Positions 38,916-64,000 of a stretch of 64,000 bases of DNA are shown one piece after another (position 1 is the stretch's first letter; every line of letters starts with the position of its first letter). Location: positions 558,001 to 622,000 of the forward strand of contig JADBXR010000002.1 of the NCBI GenBank assembly GCA_020403425.1, read 5' to 3'. The position numbers and the translations under genes were made by a program. The DNA comes from Chitinophagaceae bacterium. Lineage in GTDB: Bacteria > Bacteroidota > Bacteroidia > Chitinophagales > Chitinophagaceae. The notes under the pieces were generated by a model. The model was not told the DNA's origin, ran no database searches, and saw only the letters and a list, made by a program, of their open reading frames with translations.

Positions 38916-39128
38916 AATGCATTTTTGAGTGTAAATAATGTGGAGCCAGTTTCAGATTTTCCCAGCATTCGTTGCGCAATTCCCACAAATGAAGGGAGTT
39001 TCATACCTCTATGAAAGAGAACCGCAACAAGAAAACAGAAATACCGATTTCCAGCCTACAAAAGTACAATCCAAAATCAAGAACCGGTAAGTTTTTTGGT
39101 TAACTTTCCCCTCTGCAAAATCCCTCAT

Positions 39129-40415
39129 ATGAAGAAAATCATATCTCTATTACTGATCGGACTGGTATTCAACCTTTTTACCTCTCAACTGTCGATCGCC
39201 CAATCCACCAAACGCACCGTTTCTCAGGCCGAAATATTGCCTGCAGCTTATCGTACCGAAGTGTATGTGCCTTTACTAAAAGGCAAGCGGGTGGGTGTTT
39301 TCGCGAATCATACCGCTACGATCGGCCGGAAACATCTGGTGGACAGCCTTTTGTCACTCGGCATCACCATCACGAAAGCCTTTGGTCCGGAGCACGGATT
39401 CCGCGGCACTGCGGATGCCGGGGAAAAGATCGAGAACTATATTGATCCGGCCACTGGTATTCCGGTAGTGTCTCTGTATGGCAAAAAAAGGAAACCAACT
39501 ACAGAAGACCTTGCAGATGTGGATGTACTTCTGTTCGATATTCAGGATGTGGGCACCCGTTTCTATACCTATATTTCCTCTCTACAGGAGTTCATGGAAG
39601 CCGCTTTCGAGAACAGCAAACCGCTGATGGTACTCGACCGTCCCAACCCCAATGGTTTTTATGTTGACGGGCCAGTGCTGGATACCGCTTTCCGGAGTTT
39701 TGTGGGCATGCAACCCATTCCTATCGTATATGGTATGACCATGGGGGAATATGCCCTTATGCTGGCTTGTGAACGCTGGCTAACACCAAAGGCCAACGAA
39801 AAACACGATTATTACAAACGCGCCAAGAACAGTGCTGATACAGCTTTTCATTTTCAGGTCATCAAATGTGCCAATTATACGCACAAGAGTAAATACCAGC
39901 TACCCATTGCACCTTCACCCAATCTTCCGGATATGGCATCGGTGTACTGGTATGCCAGCACCTGTATTTTTGAGGGTACCGCACTCAGTGAAGGCAGAGG
40001 GACCGATCACCCGTTTGCGATCTTCGGACATCCTTCCCTGCCCAACAACCTCTATGCATTTACACCCACCAGCCGGGCTGGCGCCAAAGAGCCCAAACTG
40101 AAAGACCAGCTTTGTTACGGCTGGAATTTATATGCGGATAATAAAAGCATCCTGAAACAGCTGAATAACCAGGTACAGATCAAATACCTGCTGGATGCTT
40201 ACCAGGCCTTCCCGGACAAAGAGAAATTCTTCCTGGTACCCAAAGCAGGTAACATACAGTTCAGTTCATTCAACCGTCTCGCAGGCAGCAGTGAACTGAT
40301 GGCGCAGATCAAAGCCGGCAAAACAGAAGCGGAGATCCGGAAGAGCTGGCAACCTAAACTGGAGCAGTTCAAAAAGATCCGAAAGAAATATCTGCTGTAC
40401 ACCGATTTTGAATAG
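39129..40415 (+). CDS. exo-beta-N-acetylmuramidase NamZ-like (DUF1343)
   Basis: A 428-residue secreted protein. A signal peptide spans 1-25 (LSIAQ). The DUF1343 domain fills the rest: LLKGKRVGVFANHTATIG, FGPEHGFRGTADAGEKI, PVVSLYGKKRKPT, LFDIQDVGTRFYTYISSLQ, VLDRPNPNG and FEGTALSEGRGTDHPF. The characterised member NamZ removes terminal MurNAc residues from peptidoglycan fragments, so a role in wall turnover or recycling is likely. The start at 39129 is chosen for the signal peptide; TAACTTTC (39101-39108, one mismatch to TAnnTTTG) lies upstream and excludes the TTG at 39096. Confidence 0.9.
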   Translation: MKKIISLLLIGLVFNLFTSQLSIAQSTKRTVSQAEILPAAYRTEVYVPLLKGKRVGVFANHTATIGRKHLVDSLLSLGITITKAFGPEHGFRGTADAGEKIENYIDPATGIPVVSLYGKKRKPTTEDLADVDVLLFDIQDVGTRFYTYISSLQEFMEAAFENSKPLMVLDRPNPNGFYVDGPVLDTAFRSFVGMQPIPIVYGMTMGEYALMLACERWLTPKANEKHDYYKRAKNSADTAFHFQVIKCANYTHKSKYQLPIAPSPNLPDMASVYWYASTCIFEGTALSEGRGTDHPFAIFGHPSLPNNLYAFTPTSRAGAKEPKLKDQLCYGWNLYADNKSILKQLNNQVQIKYLLDAYQAFPDKEKFFLVPKAGNIQFSSFNRLAGSSELMAQIKAGKTEAEIRKSWQPKLEQFKKIRKKYLLYTDFE

Positions 40416-57120: not shown

Positions 57121-58971
57121 TTAAGCATTCACCTTCATCTCTCCCTGCAGTAATTCCACACTACGGTTGATGAAATTGGTGAGTTCATTCCCTTTGAGCA
57201 ATCCCTGCGACAACAGGGCAAGATCTGCCAGGTTACGTACCTGCTTCTGTTGCAGATCGCTGTTCTTTTCCTGTAACAGGCTCTGGTAAATGGGGTGATT
57301 ACCGTTTACGGTCAGGGTCACTTCATCCGGCATCTGCGCATAAAAAGCCGTCATGCCTCCACCTACAGCTCCCATATCCTTCATACGACGCATGAACTCT
57401 GGACGCGTAGCAATCACGGGTGCAGATTCCGGACTAAGCCCTTTGATCTCCGTAGTCACATGCAGGTTATCTATCTGGAGAACAAACAGGTCCTTCAGTT
57501 TGGTCTCATCATCTTTACTCAGAACCGTATCATGGGTTTCCTGTTTGTCGATCAGGTTGTCCACAATATCCGCATCCACCCTCACAAAACTCACGTTCTC
57601 CCATTTCATCTCCATGGTATTGATAAAAGCCGCGTCCACTAACGTTTCCATCTTCACTACGGTATATCCCTTCAACTTACAGGCCTGAACATATGCATCC
57701 TGCTGAACAGGATTGGTGGTATACAGGATCACCTGTTTGCCATCCTTGTTCTTCTGGACATTCTCGGTAGCTGTTTTATATTCATCCAGTGTATGAAACT
57801 TACCGTCGATATCTTCCATCACTAAGAATTTATTCGCTTTTTCCAGGAACTTATCGTCGGTCATCATTCCATACTTAACGAACAGGCCGAGGCTCTCCCA
57901 TTTCTCTTCGAGCGAACTCCTTTCCGTACGGAAGATCTCATCCAGCTTATCCGCCACTTTTTTGGTAATATGCGCGTTGATCTTTTTCACATTCGGATCA
58001 CCCTGCAGGTAGCTGCGGCTCACGTTCAGCGGTATGTCCGGGCTATCGATCACTCCCTGCAGCAACATCAGGAATTCCGGAACGATGTCTTTTACCTCAT
58101 CGGTCACGAATACCTGGTTGCAGTACAACTGTATCTTATCTTTCTGTATCTCATAGCTCTGTTTGATCTTGGGGAAATACAATACACCCGTAAGATTGAA
58201 CGGATAATCCACATTCAGGTGTATCCAGAACAACGGCGTTTCATTGAAAGGATATAATTCCTTGTAAAACTTCTCATAATCCTCCTTCTGCAATTCGGAG
58301 GGTTTCTTTACCCAGATGGGGTCAGTATTGTTGATCGGCTTCTCTTCACCTTCTTTTTTCTCTCCTTCCTCAGAGAAATAAATGGCGATAGGCAAAAACT
58401 TACAGAACCTTTCCAGGATACTGCGGATCCTTCCGGCTTCCAGGAACTCCTTGCTCTCTTCGTTGATGTGCAAAACGATCTTGGTGCCTCGCTGGTTATA
58501 ATCCACATCGTATAACTCAAATTCGGGACTTCCATCACAACTCCAGTAAACCCCACTTCCTTCCTTATGGCTCTTGGTGTAGATCTCTACTTTATCACTG
58601 ACCATGAAGGAACTGTAGAATCCCAGACCAAAATGACCGATAATATTGGCATCCTTGTATTTCTGCATGAATTCTTCCGCACCACTAAAAGCCACCTGAT
58701 TGATATATTTATCCACCTCCTCACCGGTCATGCCCACACCACGGTCAATGATGCTGAGGGTCTTTTCTTTGGCATCCAGAACTACATCGATTCTCAGTTC
58801 TCCCAGTTCTCCTTTGGCCTCACCAATGGACGAAAGGGTCTTTAATTTCTGCGATGCATCAACCGCATTGCTCACCAGCTCACGCAGGAAGATCTCGTGG
58901 TCGCTATACAGGAATTTCTTGATGATGGGAAAGATATTCTCGGTCTGAACCCGTATCTGGCCTTTTTGCAT
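57121..58971 (-). CDS. htpG: molecular chaperone HtpG (bacterial Hsp90)
   Basis: A 616-residue ATP-dependent cytosolic chaperone. The GHKL N-domain carries FLRELVSNAVDASQKL (catalytic Glu and metal Asn), DRGVGMTGEEV and IIGHFGLGFYSSFMV. The middle domain has TPLFWIHLNVDYPFNLTGVLYFP in two pieces, LYCNQVFVTDEVKDIVPEFL and DSPDIPLNVSRSYLQGD. The C-terminal dimer domain (about 500-616) ends GEMKVNA. Start ATG 58971 (MQKGQIRVQTENIFP) matches the family; upstream in-frame codons add an unrelated cysteine-rich stretch. No heat-shock CIRCE element was seen upstream. Confidence 0.96.
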   Translation of the reverse strand: MQKGQIRVQTENIFPIIKKFLYSDHEIFLRELVSNAVDASQKLKTLSSIGEAKGELGELRIDVVLDAKEKTLSIIDRGVGMTGEEVDKYINQVAFSGAEEFMQKYKDANIIGHFGLGFYSSFMVSDKVEIYTKSHKEGSGVYWSCDGSPEFELYDVDYNQRGTKIVLHINEESKEFLEAGRIRSILERFCKFLPIAIYFSEEGEKKEGEEKPINNTDPIWVKKPSELQKEDYEKFYKELYPFNETPLFWIHLNVDYPFNLTGVLYFPKIKQSYEIQKDKIQLYCNQVFVTDEVKDIVPEFLMLLQGVIDSPDIPLNVSRSYLQGDPNVKKINAHITKKVADKLDEIFRTERSSLEEKWESLGLFVKYGMMTDDKFLEKANKFLVMEDIDGKFHTLDEYKTATENVQKNKDGKQVILYTTNPVQQDAYVQACKLKGYTVVKMETLVDAAFINTMEMKWENVSFVRVDADIVDNLIDKQETHDTVLSKDDETKLKDLFVLQIDNLHVTTEIKGLSPESAPVIATRPEFMRRMKDMGAVGGGMTAFYAQMPDEVTLTVNGNHPIYQSLLQEKNSDLQQKQVRNLADLALLSQGLLKGNELTNFINRSVELLQGEMKVNA

Positions 58972-59094
58972 AGTACTCGTTTTGGCTGCAAATGAACAAA
59001 TTAAATACCAAACAACCCTATGCTGACAGGTTGACAAGTCCCAATACCCCATAAAGGCGGTTATTCCGTTCTGGCAGGAAAAAAATGCAGGATT

Positions 59095-60435
59095 TCAGTT
59101 ACCCAGCACCCGGACATCATCGATCTGGAAGCGGGTGGTACGGTGGTCAAAAATAGATACGGGATCAGCCCCTTCATACCGGAAAGCAATATGAACCGTA
59201 CCTGAAAAAGTGGAGAGACTGATATCGCCGGACGACACCCAGCCAGCATTGATCGATGAAACGGATCCTTTGGATATAAGAGCCCGCAAAGGCGTCCAAC
59301 GGGCTTTCCAGGGAACATTTGCACCGTCGTAATTACCCGATACCAACACCTGCAGGGTGGCTCCGTTATCATACCCATCTTTGGTAACGAACCGAAGGAT
59401 CTCATTGGCAGAGTTGGACAGGTTCACCGGCGGACTAATCAGCCAGGATACCAAGACAGGTTTACCAGTGGCAAAAGCACTGATCTCGGCATACCGGTTG
59501 CCCTGCGTGCTGTTGATCAGAAATAACTGATCGCCGGATTCTGCGATCGTCTTCCAGCCATTGTCACCTACCACACCATTGGTCTGCTGTTCAAAGTCCT
59601 CTATCAGTAATTCCTTGATACCGGGTGGGCGGCAACGCAACCCGGTCAGCTGTACATCTGAAGTATCCCGTATCAATAACTGTTTGTCATATCGGAACAC
59701 ACTGTATACCGCCGTGATACTCCCATTACCCCTGGGAACACGGGCAGAGGCGAACCTCGCAAAACCACTGGTACGGACATAGGCGCTTCCGCCGCCACAG
59801 GCTTTTACGGTCAGGTTCGATGAAATCCGGTTTACCGGATCCGCATAGGTCTTACCCGTATCGTTCACCGCAAACTCAAGCTGGTCGATCCTTATTAGGC
59901 AACTCTGCAACGAATCGGCCAGTTCATCCAGCCGCACCTGTTTGGGAACAATAGGCTGGTTCAATTCTTTTTTAACAAGGAACCTGTTGAACAAGGGCAC
60001 AGGTATGGGTCTGATCTCCGGGTAAGCCGGTACGGACCTATCAACGCCGGCACCCAGTTGCAGCATGCCCGCATAATCGCCCATCCACAGACCTTTGAGT
60101 TTTACGGCCAATCTTCTTCCCACCGGATAATCGGTGTACAGGCCGAAGCCGTCGAGTCGGATGGTGATACCGCCGGTGCTATCCTGTATCACCACAGATT
60201 TATAAAAATTATCGCGGCTATCGTCCGCAACCACGATACCTTCTATTACACTGTCCTCGGTTAGATACTCGAAGTTACCGGGGGTATGCCGGTTACGCAA
60301 TTCACGAATTCCCATGTTGGGACGTATATCCGGTCCCCGGTACACAGGAGGTTCATCGAATTTTTTATTACAATGCGCGCAAAACAGAAGGCATGCGCAG
60401 CAGACATATCCCATACATTGTTTTCTCTTTGTCAT
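59095..60435 (-). CDS. DUF5689 domain envelope protein (receptor partner)
   Basis: A 446-residue exported protein. A short hydrophobic N-terminus is followed by cysteines (LLFCAHCNKK); acylation at C22 is possible but the lipobox is not canonical. The DUF5689 domain (about 35-255) has GNFEYLTEDSVIEGIVVADDS in two pieces, FYKSVVIQDSTGGITIRLDG and KGLWMGDYAGMLQLGAG, an OB-like beta fold. The C-terminal half (about 265-446) resembles a choice-of-anchor/jelly-roll module (LLIEDFEQQ, FQIDDVRVLG). Its ATG overlaps the upstream TonB-receptor stop by 4 nt, so the pair is coupled like SusC-SusD. It probably binds the ligand of that receptor. Confidence 0.86.
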   Translation of the reverse strand: MTKRKQCMGYVCCACLLFCAHCNKKFDEPPVYRGPDIRPNMGIRELRNRHTPGNFEYLTEDSVIEGIVVADDSRDNFYKSVVIQDSTGGITIRLDGFGLYTDYPVGRRLAVKLKGLWMGDYAGMLQLGAGVDRSVPAYPEIRPIPVPLFNRFLVKKELNQPIVPKQVRLDELADSLQSCLIRIDQLEFAVNDTGKTYADPVNRISSNLTVKACGGGSAYVRTSGFARFASARVPRGNGSITAVYSVFRYDKQLLIRDTSDVQLTGLRCRPPGIKELLIEDFEQQTNGVVGDNGWKTIAESGDQLFLINSTQGNRYAEISAFATGKPVLVSWLISPPVNLSNSANEILRFVTKDGYDNGATLQVLVSGNYDGANVPWKARWTPLRALISKGSVSSINAGWVSSGDISLSTFSGTVHIAFRYEGADPVSIFDHRTTRFQIDDVRVLGN

Positions 60436-62999
60436 AACCGGAGAGAAATATTTACAGAATAATTCAGTCCCATGGCATAAAAATATTTGGATGGAAATCG
60501 GTTTACATTCTTTGTATCCATATCAAACCTTAATTGTTCATACCCGCCGGACAGGATGTCTTTCCTGTTCAACAGGTTATTGATGCCTGCATACAACAGG
60601 AGGGTCTGAAAATGTTTGGCTCCCGGCAACCGTAAGCGGATAGAGCATCCTCCCGACAGATCAAGGGTCAACTGTTCCGGTAATTTCTCCTGCCCGATGA
60701 TACGATACCACTGTTCCGATCCCTCGGTAACATTCTCCATGGCCTGATAGGTTCGTCGGATGGGATTGAACGACAGCCAGTGCTCCCTGAAATAACTGGC
60801 ATACATATTCAGGTAGCTGTTATTGTGCTGATAGCTGATCCCCAGCCCATAAGCTTCCTGCGGCGTTCCTTCCACCCTGAAATTTTTCATGTACACCTGC
60901 CCTTTCTCCAATACGAAGGCATCGTTATCCGCCGTTACCGAATATGCAGGCCTATTGCTGTAATAGTACCTACCTGCGGCAATACCCAGTTGAAGCGTCC
61001 ACTTACCGGTCAGCTTATATTCACCGCCCAGTTCAGTTCCGTAATGAACTTTACCGATGCCGGATAAAGCATAATTCACAAGACTCCTGTACGCATCATG
61101 GTAGAAGCTGAGCACGTTCATGGATCCACTCAGCGCGGTGATATAGGCAGAGAGCCTGATCTTCAGTTTGGGTGAATTCAAGATAAGTCCTGACTCTGCA
61201 TTGACCATCATTTCGCTGGTCACCTTTTCCTGCCGGGTATCCCTGGTCCTGGGCGAGATAAAAATATTATCAAAGAATGGTGCCCTGCTCATGGCCAGAG
61301 CCTGCAGGTACAGGTATTTACGGCCGCTGACCTTATAGTTGAACCCGGCTTTGACAGACAGGTTGGTAAATGACAGCGTTGCCGATATGCCATAAGAATC
61401 AAAAGGGAATAATCCATTCCGCATCCTGCCTTCCCGCGTATATTCCGTAGTTGACAGGGATATTCCGGCAAAGCCATCCACTTTTTGCCAGGATGCCGTT
61501 ACCGTGCCTGTTATGCCCGCTAGGCCCGTGTTCACCAGATAATCATACCCATACCTGTCACCTTCCCGCAATACGCGGTTCGGATGATGGAGGTCGTTCT
61601 GGATGGCATTGACATTTCCCGGATAATCATTTTCTGCGAATGTGTTCCAGTCAACTGAATACTCGGCCCCCAACAGGTCCCGGATCCGGTTATACCGATG
61701 CGTCTGCTGCAATTGCAGGTAAACATCCGCGTTGAGGGTCACCAGGTTGCTGATGCGGGAGGTATAAGTCACGCTGAGTTCGGCCTTCCTGGTATCGGTC
61801 ACCCTTTCCGCCAGCAGGTAACGGGCCCGTAAGCCGGAGAACTGGTTGCCCCTGATGCCATCCACATCCTCAATCGTCTCCCAACTGTTCCTGTTCACAT
61901 CATATAACCTTTGCCAGTTGATCTGTAACAACGACGGCTGGCCCTGTATCTCTTCTGTTACCAGTTTACGCAACAGGGTATCGGTTTGGTATGAGGGCAG
62001 GTACCGGTAATAATCGGGTCTGGGATCAGGCGCATCGTACCAGTCCAATGCAGTGGCGCTCCTACGTCCCGCCATCAATCCCAAAGAGATCGTACATGCC
62101 GATTGGTTATCGGGACGGAACTCATCCAACAGGATCAGCATCGGGAGATGCGACCGGTTGGTATTGGCATTCCTTTTCCTGCCTCCCTGCCATCCCCAGT
62201 AAGGATTGTAAAAGGAATCGCCGTTCAGCTGCACGGTCTCTTTCAGTACCGGTCCCTGCCGGGCGGTCGTTACGGCATTACCCAAAAGCACCAGCGAGAG
62301 CAAATGCCCTTCGCGGGTCTGTTTGTCAATTGCGAAATAATAACCGCCACCTTCCTGGTATGTTCCCGGAAAATGGCTTTCCACAGCTCCCCGCCAGTTA
62401 ACAGAAAAAGCAGATGCCCATCCTGTTTTGTTCATACCCCGGTTCCATGTAAATGAAAAACGCCTGCTGAACATCCGGCTACTCAATGCAGTGCTGATCA
62501 GTAGCTGTTCCCTTTGGCGGGAAGCACGCAGATCCATCAGCAGTGTATTGCCGGGGTTGGTAAATCCCAACTCTGCAGTACCTGTACCCAGTATCACACG
62601 ATTATTTCTGGTCACTTCGTTCAGTCCTGACCAGACAGACCATTGCGGGGTCCCATCCTCAGGATCATTCAGGTGCAGCCCGTTGATCTGCACACCCGAC
62701 ATGTCCGGAGCATACCCACGCAGGCGAAACCGCTTCACAGAAAAATGAAAGGCCGCCATCGAATAGAGTATATCCCGGTTGGCCATGAGCAGACCCGGCA
62801 CAAAAACACCATCTTCCGCCGTACGTTCTGTTTCGTTAAGTGTGATGATGGGCAGATCGTACCATTGCCCCTCCTTCAATAAGGACGCAGCGGCACTATC
62901 TGTGAACTTGTTTTTTTCTTTGTCAGGCCGGTGATACCGCTGCGCATGCATATTGTTGCAAAAGCATAGCAACAGTAAAGGCCATAGTGATCGTAACAT
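60432..62999 (-). CDS. TonB-dependent receptor paired with DUF5689 protein
   Basis: An 855-residue outer-membrane protein. The signal peptide is 1-19 (NNMHAQ). There is no CarboxypepD_reg domain and the plug is divergent (about 80-155): FSVKRFRLRGYAPDMSGVQI, NGLHLNDPEDGTPQWSVWSG and VILGTGTAELGFTNPGNTLL. The rest is a long barrel (about 160-855) ending SVNISLRL. It overlaps the DUF5689 gene by 4 nt and is divergent from a secreted EEP-family nuclease/phosphatase gene with 163 bp between the start codons. The layout suggests uptake of a product released by that enzyme, such as nucleic-acid or phosphate compounds; this is inference. Confidence 0.88.
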   Translation of the reverse strand: MLRSLWPLLLLCFCNNMHAQRYHRPDKEKNKFTDSAAASLLKEGQWYDLPIITLNETERTAEDGVFVPGLLMANRDILYSMAAFHFSVKRFRLRGYAPDMSGVQINGLHLNDPEDGTPQWSVWSGLNEVTRNNRVILGTGTAELGFTNPGNTLLMDLRASRQREQLLISTALSSRMFSRRFSFTWNRGMNKTGWASAFSVNWRGAVESHFPGTYQEGGGYYFAIDKQTREGHLLSLVLLGNAVTTARQGPVLKETVQLNGDSFYNPYWGWQGGRKRNANTNRSHLPMLILLDEFRPDNQSACTISLGLMAGRRSATALDWYDAPDPRPDYYRYLPSYQTDTLLRKLVTEEIQGQPSLLQINWQRLYDVNRNSWETIEDVDGIRGNQFSGLRARYLLAERVTDTRKAELSVTYTSRISNLVTLNADVYLQLQQTHRYNRIRDLLGAEYSVDWNTFAENDYPGNVNAIQNDLHHPNRVLREGDRYGYDYLVNTGLAGITGTVTASWQKVDGFAGISLSTTEYTREGRMRNGLFPFDSYGISATLSFTNLSVKAGFNYKVSGRKYLYLQALAMSRAPFFDNIFISPRTRDTRQEKVTSEMMVNAESGLILNSPKLKIRLSAYITALSGSMNVLSFYHDAYRSLVNYALSGIGKVHYGTELGGEYKLTGKWTLQLGIAAGRYYYSNRPAYSVTADNDAFVLEKGQVYMKNFRVEGTPQEAYGLGISYQHNNSYLNMYASYFREHWLSFNPIRRTYQAMENVTEGSEQWYRIIGQEKLPEQLTLDLSGGCSIRLRLPGAKHFQTLLLYAGINNLLNRKDILSGGYEQLRFDMDTKNVNRFPSKYFYAMGLNYSVNISLRL

Positions 63000-63038
63000 G
63001 GCTGAACTGTTTTACTTACTTCGCACAGGGAATACAAT

Positions 63039-63166
63039 GGAGGAGACAAATCGTGGCTAAAATAATTTCCGATACCATCAAAAACAAGTACAAGAAAAAA
63101 GATTGCGGTAAATACGCTACCATAGCTGCTGAAGTCACTGTAGGTTTATTGAAAAGCATTTCATGA
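63039..63166 (+). CDS. possible 37-residue small ORF with strong Shine-Dalgarno, overlapping the EEP gene start
   Basis: GGAGGAG at 63039-63045 is an ideal Shine-Dalgarno, 7 nt before GTG at 63053. The frame encodes about 37 residues, lysine-rich at first (AKIISDTIKNKYKKKDCGKY) and then ATIAAEVTVGLLKSIS, ending in TGA at 63164-63166. That stop overlaps the ATG of the EEP gene by 4 nt (ATGA). Such coupling and ribosome site suggest a leader peptide or small protein, but no family is recognised and the frame is open further upstream, so chance cannot be excluded. The CDS proper would be 63053-63166. Confidence 0.3.
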
Positions 63167-64000
63167 AATATGGTATCCTGCTGTTATGGCTGATCGGTCA
63201 CACGACCGCAGAGGCACAACGATACAAGGCCTGCGTGGTCGCTTTTTACAATCTCGAAAATCTCTATGATACCATCAACAACCCGTTGGTGAACGATGAT
63301 GACTTCACACCTTCCGGTAGCAAACACTACACTAAAAATATCTATCTCGACAAACTGGAGAAACTTGCTACTGTTATCAGCCAGATCGGTAAAGAGACCA
63401 GTCCCACCGGACCTGCATTACTGGGTGTGGCCGAGATCGAGAATGATACGGTATTGTATGACCTTACACATCACCCTTTCCTGGTCCAGCGTCATTACGG
63501 AATGATCCATTACGACTCCCGCGATGCAAGGGGCATCGATGTGGCTTTGCTGTACAACCCTTCCATCTTCACGCCTGAAAAAGCGGAGAAATTGGAGGTA
63601 CAGCTTCCAGGCAACAGCAAAGAAGCCTTCTTTACCAGGGATATCCTGTACGTGACCGGCTGGCTGGCCGGAGAACGCATCCATGTATATGTGAACCACT
63701 GGCCCAGCCGTCGCGGCGGCGAGGAAAGAAGTTCCCCCGCACGCGAACAGGCGGCGCTCACCTGCCGAAAACATATCTATTCTGTACAACAGAAAAATCC
63801 AGGCGCCAAGATCATCCTTATGGGCGACCTGAATGATGATCCCGACAGTCCCAGCATTACCCGCTCATTGGGAGCCCGGTCAGAAATGAGCCGGACCCGG
63901 CCCGGAGAATTGTTCAACCCCTGGGCCGAACTCCATGCGAGGGGGATCGGTACCCTGGCCAACCGCGACAGTTGGGGACTTTTCGACCAGATCCTGCTCT
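63163..64000 (+). CDS. secreted endonuclease/exonuclease/phosphatase (EEP) family protein, 3' end cut by window edge
   Basis: The first ~279 residues are visible. A signal peptide (1-19, TTAEAQ) is followed by the EEP (DNase I-like) fold: VVAFYNLENLYDTI (metal Asn), LLGVAEIENDTVLYDL (metal Glu), DSRDARGIDVALLYNP, VYVNHWPSRRGGEERS (catalytic His) and ILMGDLNDDPDSPSI (Asp/Asn). The last motif, the terminal SDH histidine, would lie beyond the window, where FDQIL is just reached. The enzyme would hydrolyse phosphodiester or phosphomonoester bonds outside the cytosol, in nucleic acids, nucleotides or phospholipids. Start ATG 63163; divergent from the receptor-DUF5689 operon. Confidence 0.9.
   Translation, partial: MKYGILLLWLIGHTTAEAQRYKACVVAFYNLENLYDTINNPLVNDDDFTPSGSKHYTKNIYLDKLEKLATVISQIGKETSPTGPALLGVAEIENDTVLYDLTHHPFLVQRHYGMIHYDSRDARGIDVALLYNPSIFTPEKAEKLEVQLPGNSKEAFFTRDILYVTGWLAGERIHVYVNHWPSRRGGEERSSPAREQAALTCRKHIYSVQQKNPGAKIILMGDLNDDPDSPSITRSLGARSEMSRTRPGELFNPWAELHARGIGTLANRDSWGLFDQILL

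Follow-up and report, generated by a model that had tools for sequence, protein, structure and literature searches.

The closest described system is found in Riemerella anatipestifer, in which a transposon screen of 3000 mutants for natural transformation (Huang et al. 2021, PMC8459023) yielded, as far as the available text of that paper goes, factors without homologues in known uptake machines. Clean deletion of either RA0C_RS04915, which encodes an outer-membrane protein with a CarboxypepD_reg domain, or RA0C_RS04920, which encodes a DUF5689 and choice-of-anchor J protein, left cells non-transformable (below ~4e-10, compared with 5.4e-5 for the wild type), and the DUF1343 protein RA0C_RS09020 was likewise essential. 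In the authors' model, DNA binds RS04920, enters via RS04915, is made single-stranded by 'an unidentified protein' and then passes to ComEC, DprA and RecA. A homologue of RS04915 was reported only from Flavobacteriaceae, and RA0C_RS04910 is mentioned in the available text solely as an upstream gene with unchanged transcription. Here we describe a related locus at the end of a 64,000-nucleotide stretch of DNA from a Chitinophagaceae bacterium (the window; GenBank assembly GCA_020403425.1, contig JADBXR010000002.1, positions 558,001 to 622,000), in which genes for a TonB-dependent receptor and a DUF5689 protein stand divergent from a gene for an Exo_endo_phos_3 enzyme of the EEP fold family. We favour, as fairly probable, the reading that this locus provides the outer-membrane DNA-uptake stage of Riemerella-type natural transformation, with the EEP enzyme trimming DNA or removing one strand in the periplasm.

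In window coordinates, the locus comprises:

59095..60435, minus strand: DUF5689 and choice-of-anchor J protein, 446 residues, a probable outer-membrane lipoprotein; by sequence the counterpart of RA0C_RS04920
60432..62999, minus strand: TonB-dependent receptor with plug, 855 residues, without a CarboxypepD_reg domain; by sequence the counterpart of RA0C_RS04915
60432..60435, minus strand: 4-nt overlap of the receptor stop and the DUF5689 start
63000..63162, no strand: 163-bp divergent intergenic region
63163..64000, plus strand: Exo_endo_phos_3 (EEP) protein of the linked subfamily described below; by gene order the counterpart of RA0C_RS04910

The EEP gene extends beyond the window to 64194, giving a full product of 343 residues, and the 4-nt overlap suggests that the receptor and DUF5689 genes are translationally coupled. 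An earlier note on this DNA had described the three genes in these terms, including the missing CarboxypepD_reg domain, the overlap and the divergent region; all of them are real and as it described them.

Judged from sequence, the window receptor and DUF5689 protein are the counterparts of RA0C_RS04915 and RA0C_RS04920. A relative genome (G431) carries, in order, recA, dinB, sdhB, sdhA, sdhC, comEC, a hypothetical gene, a carboxylase gene, EEP, receptor and DUF5689 genes; recA, dinB, sdhB, comEC, the carboxylase gene and the trio were assigned by family, and sdhA and sdhC are our presumed names from the protein starts. This order and its spacing match RA0C_RS04870 to RA0C_RS04920, numbered in steps of five, with recA at RS04870 and comEC at RS04895. 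Because the G431 order fits RS04870, RS04895, RS04915 and RS04920, the EEP gene corresponds to RS04910. The best match of the G431 receptor was a Riemerella anatipestifer protein (94% identity), and Chryseobacterium proteins reached 66% at best, in line with the 65.9% given for Chryseobacterium in PMC8459023. The receptor was present in 58 of the 60 genomes of the family that contains G431. Compared with their G431 relatives, the window receptor showed 27% identity over 872 positions (323 bits), the DUF5689 protein 28% over 483 positions and the EEP protein 42% over 302 positions, the highest of the three.

The trio is a real, widely kept and conserved module. In a class sample of 217 genomes (thresholds E ≤1e-100 for the receptor and E ≤1e-18 for DUF5689, with positions taken from the matches listed), the receptor and a strong DUF5689 match occurred in the same 50 genomes among the matches listed. 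The two genes were adjacent in 48 of these 50, the exceptions being G017 (scattered) and G281 (different contigs). All 50 also carried an EEP gene, which lay within 6 kb of the pair in 40 genomes, farther along the contig in 5 and on another contig in 5, so that the linkage of the three families suspected by the earlier note is indeed conserved. Relative to the pair, 31 of the 40 linked EEP genes were upstream and divergent, 6 were downstream on the other strand, and on the pair's own strand 2 were upstream and 1 downstream; these four arrangements argue that the linkage has been retained or re-established on several occasions. The receptor genomes of a phylum sample were exactly the 28 in which DUF5689 scored at least 147 bits; the pair was adjacent in 27 (not in G017) and the EEP gene adjoined the receptor in 18, counts that are not independent events, as the phylum and class samples overlap in genomes and share ancestry. 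G017 was the only phylum-sample genome with all three genes kept but scattered (receptor at C8:644914, DUF5689 at C9:183303, EEP at C8:323769). Finally, the best 80 of 591 receptor relatives from named genomes yielded a receptor open reading frame (ORF) in 79. DUF5689 adjoined it in 73 of these best-ranked loci (5 were cut by a contig end and 1 had none), and an EEP gene lay within 6 kb in 59 (6 were cut by a contig end and 14 had room but no EEP gene). Their titles named Chitinophagaceae, Saprospiraceae, Flavobacteriales, Bacteroidales and others; most are metagenome bins with rough names.

The window EEP protein scored over the PF19580 (Exo_endo_phos_3) cut-off, with 287.1 bits for the part inside the window and 357.1 bits on the genome. 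PF19580 is common by itself (130 of 217 class genomes, including 80 of the 167 without the pair), and we therefore compared linked EEP proteins with second copies and with those of genomes lacking the pair. The resulting tree (FastTree, SH-like support, 143 rows) held 92 linked rows from 89 loci, to which L042, L050 and L136 also contributed second copies lying near their pair; it omitted L190, the one of 40 extra loci without an ORF match, and EEP proteins outside 300–460 residues from the core, named-genome and new loci. One branch (support 98) placed 98 of 99 linked or displaced EEP proteins on one side together with 3 others, and the remaining linked protein on the far side with 41 others. 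Of these 3, L099 is truly linked, its receptor match being present where the ORF finder had missed it; the linked subfamily otherwise took in only 1 of 26 rows from genomes without the pair (G134) and 1 of 17 second copies (L197, on a long branch).

The earlier note had read metal motifs and a signal peptide in the window EEP protein; across 91 linked EEP proteins the catalytic residues N30, E91, H179, D222, N224, D330 and H331 were conserved at 99–100%. A lipobox-like pattern was absent from the first 40 residues in 90 of the 91. The tail after the SDHxP end, recognizable in 88 of the 91, had a median of 10 residues and a maximum of 22; a type 9 secretion signal takes up about 70–100 residues, so these tails are too short to hold one. 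With an export signal but neither a lipid anchor nor a type 9 tail, the linked EEP enzyme is probably located in the periplasm, where it would act after import. The degrade-bind-import order of the earlier note, with the enzyme at work outside the cell before uptake, is accordingly not supported as the main reading. A PDB sequence search with the EEP protein gave no match at E ≤0.01.

A periplasmic nuclease may meet a need left by ComEC. In the available texts, ComEC elsewhere is described as degrading the unused strand through a C-terminal beta-lactamase-like domain (PMC8579336); in pneumococcus EndA degrades the strand, and the means in Helicobacter pylori is given as unknown (PMC12455585). 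Bacteroidetes ComEC proteins are mostly of a type without the beta-lactamase-like domain (PMC6299819, from the part available). Consistently, Lactamase_B at E ≤0.1 was found in none of 20 Bacteroidota ComEC proteins, 10 from pair genomes (including those of the window's genome and R. anatipestifer) and 10 from no-pair genomes; the check left out G205, in which no ORF was found, and the G284 ORF was short (426 residues). About 190 unassigned residues end the window's ComEC, where a degenerate domain is possible, and the R. anatipestifer protein (602 residues) has little room for one. Because the ComEC proteins checked have no nuclease domain, the EEP enzyme is a candidate for the strand-removal step in R. 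anatipestifer-type transformation.

The receptor forms a sharply bounded family. Its predicted fold is a TonB-dependent transporter with a plug within an outer-membrane beta barrel, and a profile built from 27 receptors separated 28 members (at least 947 bits) from the next best protein (228 bits) across 198 phylum genomes. PDB sequence searches gave two chance-like matches with the receptor alone, weak matches only, to OprC, a SusC fragment and scaffoldins, with the profile, and one chance-like match with the DUF5689 protein. The latter is a probable outer-membrane lipoprotein, to judge from a cysteine (Cys22) that is invariant in 28 relatives. DUF5689 was the sole Pfam family found in the receptor's partner at E ≤1, its domain taking up residues 39–265. 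A fold search added a C-terminal jelly roll resembling a carbohydrate-binding domain: all 50 listed rows fell on this domain (residues 270–446), and none of the rows listed was an OB-fold chain. The tRNA_anti-codon OB-fold family matched weakly in 3 of the 28 relatives (best E 0.0016); 4 matched the ExeM-GG model and 4 an LTD domain. The window protein scored 202.5 bits against the NCBIfam M949_1556 subfamily (NF052645), below its cut-off of 475 bits, and the R. anatipestifer protein, at 599.3 bits, above it. Some loci carry two DUF5689 proteins in tandem after the receptor (for example L104, L113, L137, L146 and L147), and some carry longer proteins with two DUF5689 stretches. The DUF5689 model (PF18942) also matched the Bacillus subtilis control genome over its cut-off; the protein matched may be YhcR, a secreted nuclease, in which case a role in nucleic-acid handling would fit.

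In the uptake route that we propose, the surface lipoprotein, with its DUF5689 and jelly-roll domains, would be seated on the plugged receptor and bind DNA; TonB energy would open the receptor and let DNA enter the periplasm, where helix-hairpin-helix proteins may retain it. The EEP nuclease would then trim the DNA or strip one strand, and ComEC would carry the other across the inner membrane to DprA and RecA; the window's host may be transformable. Reduced transformation of tonBA and tonBB mutants of R. anatipestifer, reported to fall still further in a triple mutant (PMC8383284, from the text available), is as a TonB-driven receptor predicts. In R. columbina, EDTA blocks transformation and Ca, Mg, Zn or Mn restores it, according to the available part of PMC7965970. 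Of the 50 pair genomes, all had ComEC and 49 had DprA; we discarded this as support because both are nearly universal (213 and 212 of the 217 class genomes). The window's genome encodes ComEC and DprA, one protein in which the HHH_3 domain occurs three times, and three DUF1343 (NamZ_N) proteins, one of which lies within the window at 39096–40415 on the plus strand (251.7 bits). Proximity of comEC to the pair, at ~4 kb in R. anatipestifer, ~32 kb in G199 and ~26 kb in G053, was also set aside, the cases being too few.

Several observations weigh against this proposal. The transformation role is known from the R. anatipestifer pair, and it is by extrapolation that we place the window's host and the EEP subfamily alongside it. 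The EEP gene was absent from the hits of the R. anatipestifer screen in the available text, although the screen was small; it was unlinked in 10 of the 50 class genomes and in 10 of the 28 phylum-sample genomes, and G134 has a linked-subfamily EEP protein (L066:9161-10201) without a receptor or DUF5689 protein of the pair type; the pair may have been lost there, or the enzyme may serve a different purpose. ComEC proteins without a nuclease domain are found in genomes lacking the pair too and are not specific to it. The presence of competence genes proves little, as HHH_3 and DUF1343 proteins also occurred in the three no-pair genomes searched (G134, G007 and G033), and sequence support for DUF5689 as a DNA binder is weak. 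From the literature, as far as the available texts go, the tonBB effect is attributed to iron by the authors (PMC8383284), and Flavobacterium johnsoniae could not be transformed under the conditions used (PMC7965970), though Flavobacterium homologues are listed.

The alternative that survives best keeps the pair as the DNA-uptake apparatus and makes the EEP enzyme a mere neighbour with a task of its own, for example as a periplasmic phosphodiesterase. Its unlinked copies, its absence from the screen hits and the frequency of PF19580 in genomes without the pair all speak for such independence. However, the linked EEP proteins form one subfamily that almost no outside copy joins, their four arrangements point to linkage repeatedly kept or regained, and the EEP protein is more conserved between the window and R. 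anatipestifer than either of the other two. On this balance we regard a mere neighbour as unlikely.

Scavenging was the purpose favoured by the earlier note. On this alternative the trio would harvest DNA or its fragments for phosphate, nitrogen or nucleosides, and transformation would be a by-product. The receptor-plus-lipoprotein layout and the receptor fold do resemble nutrient importers, and transformation of R. columbina rose about two-fold when phosphate was lacking and five-fold when peptone was, with the authors discussing DNA as food (PMC7965970, from the part available). Against this, loss of the R. anatipestifer pair abolished transformation (PMC8459023), which requires long DNA to reach RecA, making intact DNA a better cargo than small cleavage products. 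A probably periplasmic EEP enzyme would prepare no small pieces outside the cell, and no phosphatase, nucleosidase or nucleoside transporter was a shared neighbour in 27 core loci, in which the most widespread family beyond the trio reached only 10. We consider scavenging as the main role rather improbable. A nucleic-acid ligand, as the earlier note proposed, remains likely; the nutritional purpose should go, or be shared with transformation.

Less probable again, and in our view distinctly so, is an indirect role, in which the pair would maintain the integrity of the outer membrane or of surface polysaccharide, or import a competence factor, rather than form a DNA channel. The jelly roll resembles a carbohydrate-binding domain, the tonB effects may arise via iron, and M949_1556, the R. 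anatipestifer gene that gives the NF052645 family its name and is possibly RS04920, is reported, in the text available, to affect antigenicity, virulence and lipopolysaccharide. Yet transformation was lost completely in both deletions, and the pair has a gene for a nuclease-type enzyme as its neighbour. A SusCD glycan pair, finally, was rejected, as the earlier note had already argued, the partner having no SusD domain.

Returning to the proposed DNA-uptake locus, the receptor–EEP intergenic region of its relatives was enriched in a promoter-like TAnnTTTG box (46 of 77 on the receptor strand and 38 of 77 on the EEP strand, against a mean of 10 and a highest value of 16 in shuffles that preserve single-base content only); the window's own 163-bp region has no such box. 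An htpG-like gene (57121–59052, minus strand) lies 42 bp downstream of the DUF5689 gene in the same orientation, an arrangement common to 3 of 27 core loci, and genes resembling rpsF and rplI come after the EEP gene, from L002:7377 onward; we take all three names from the protein starts. Gene calls in the fetched loci begin at the first start codon, and some starts are too long.

The pair's role in transformation is already published for one species, R. anatipestifer. In a literature search with preprints and most subscription journals outside its range, we found no report of a nuclease partner or of such a system beyond Flavobacteriaceae or in other orders; RA0C_RS04910, RS04915 and RS04920 were found only in PMC8459023, the one paper in which 'DUF5689' occurs. 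The available text of a 2025 review of natural transformation (PMC12236230) lacks the words Riemerella, Bacteroid-, Flavobact- and Porphyromonas. The trio bears on how DNA crosses the Bacteroidota outer membrane. With its dedicated nuclease it offers a short gene list to test in many genera and a possible marker of transformable Bacteroidota; the receptor may prove to be a TonB receptor that carries DNA, and the EEP enzyme is a candidate for the 'unidentified protein' of the R. anatipestifer model. More tentatively, and with somewhat more doubt than confidence, we suggest that a DNA-uptake machine peculiar to Bacteroidota exists in several orders of the class, built from a TonB-powered receptor channel, a lipoprotein lid that binds DNA and a periplasmic EEP nuclease dedicated to strand removal, and invented separately from the pilus and the type IV secretion system.

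Compared with the R. anatipestifer pair, the window locus shares the receptor family, the DUF5689 and choice-of-anchor J family, adjacency on one strand and a divergent EEP gene upstream; it differs in the missing CarboxypepD_reg domain, in identities of only 27–28% for the pair and in a DUF5689 protein below the M949_1556 cut-off. SusC/SusD- and BtuB/BtuG-type pairs differ in that the partner here combines DUF5689 with a jelly roll, without SusD, and the proposed cargo is DNA. The ExeM/NucH extracellular nucleases belong to the same broad EEP fold family, but the EEP part in the window scored just 15.9 bits against the NF033681 cut-off of 300. The task that we propose for the EEP enzyme, removing one strand ahead of inner-membrane passage, is that of Streptococcus pneumoniae EndA and of the beta-lactamase-like ComEC domain (PMC12455585), whereas the EEP enzyme itself is an Exo_endo_phos_3 protein, probably free in the periplasm, to which we assign this function conditionally. 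Pilus or secretion parts were not noticed among the shared neighbours of the pair loci, with no whole-genome type IV pilus search made. The Com machines built on a type IV pilus or type IV secretion system, as described in the available text of PMC6668835, carry out the same task of bringing DNA over the outer membrane to ComEC; in the system that we propose, a TonB-dependent receptor would take the place of that machine.
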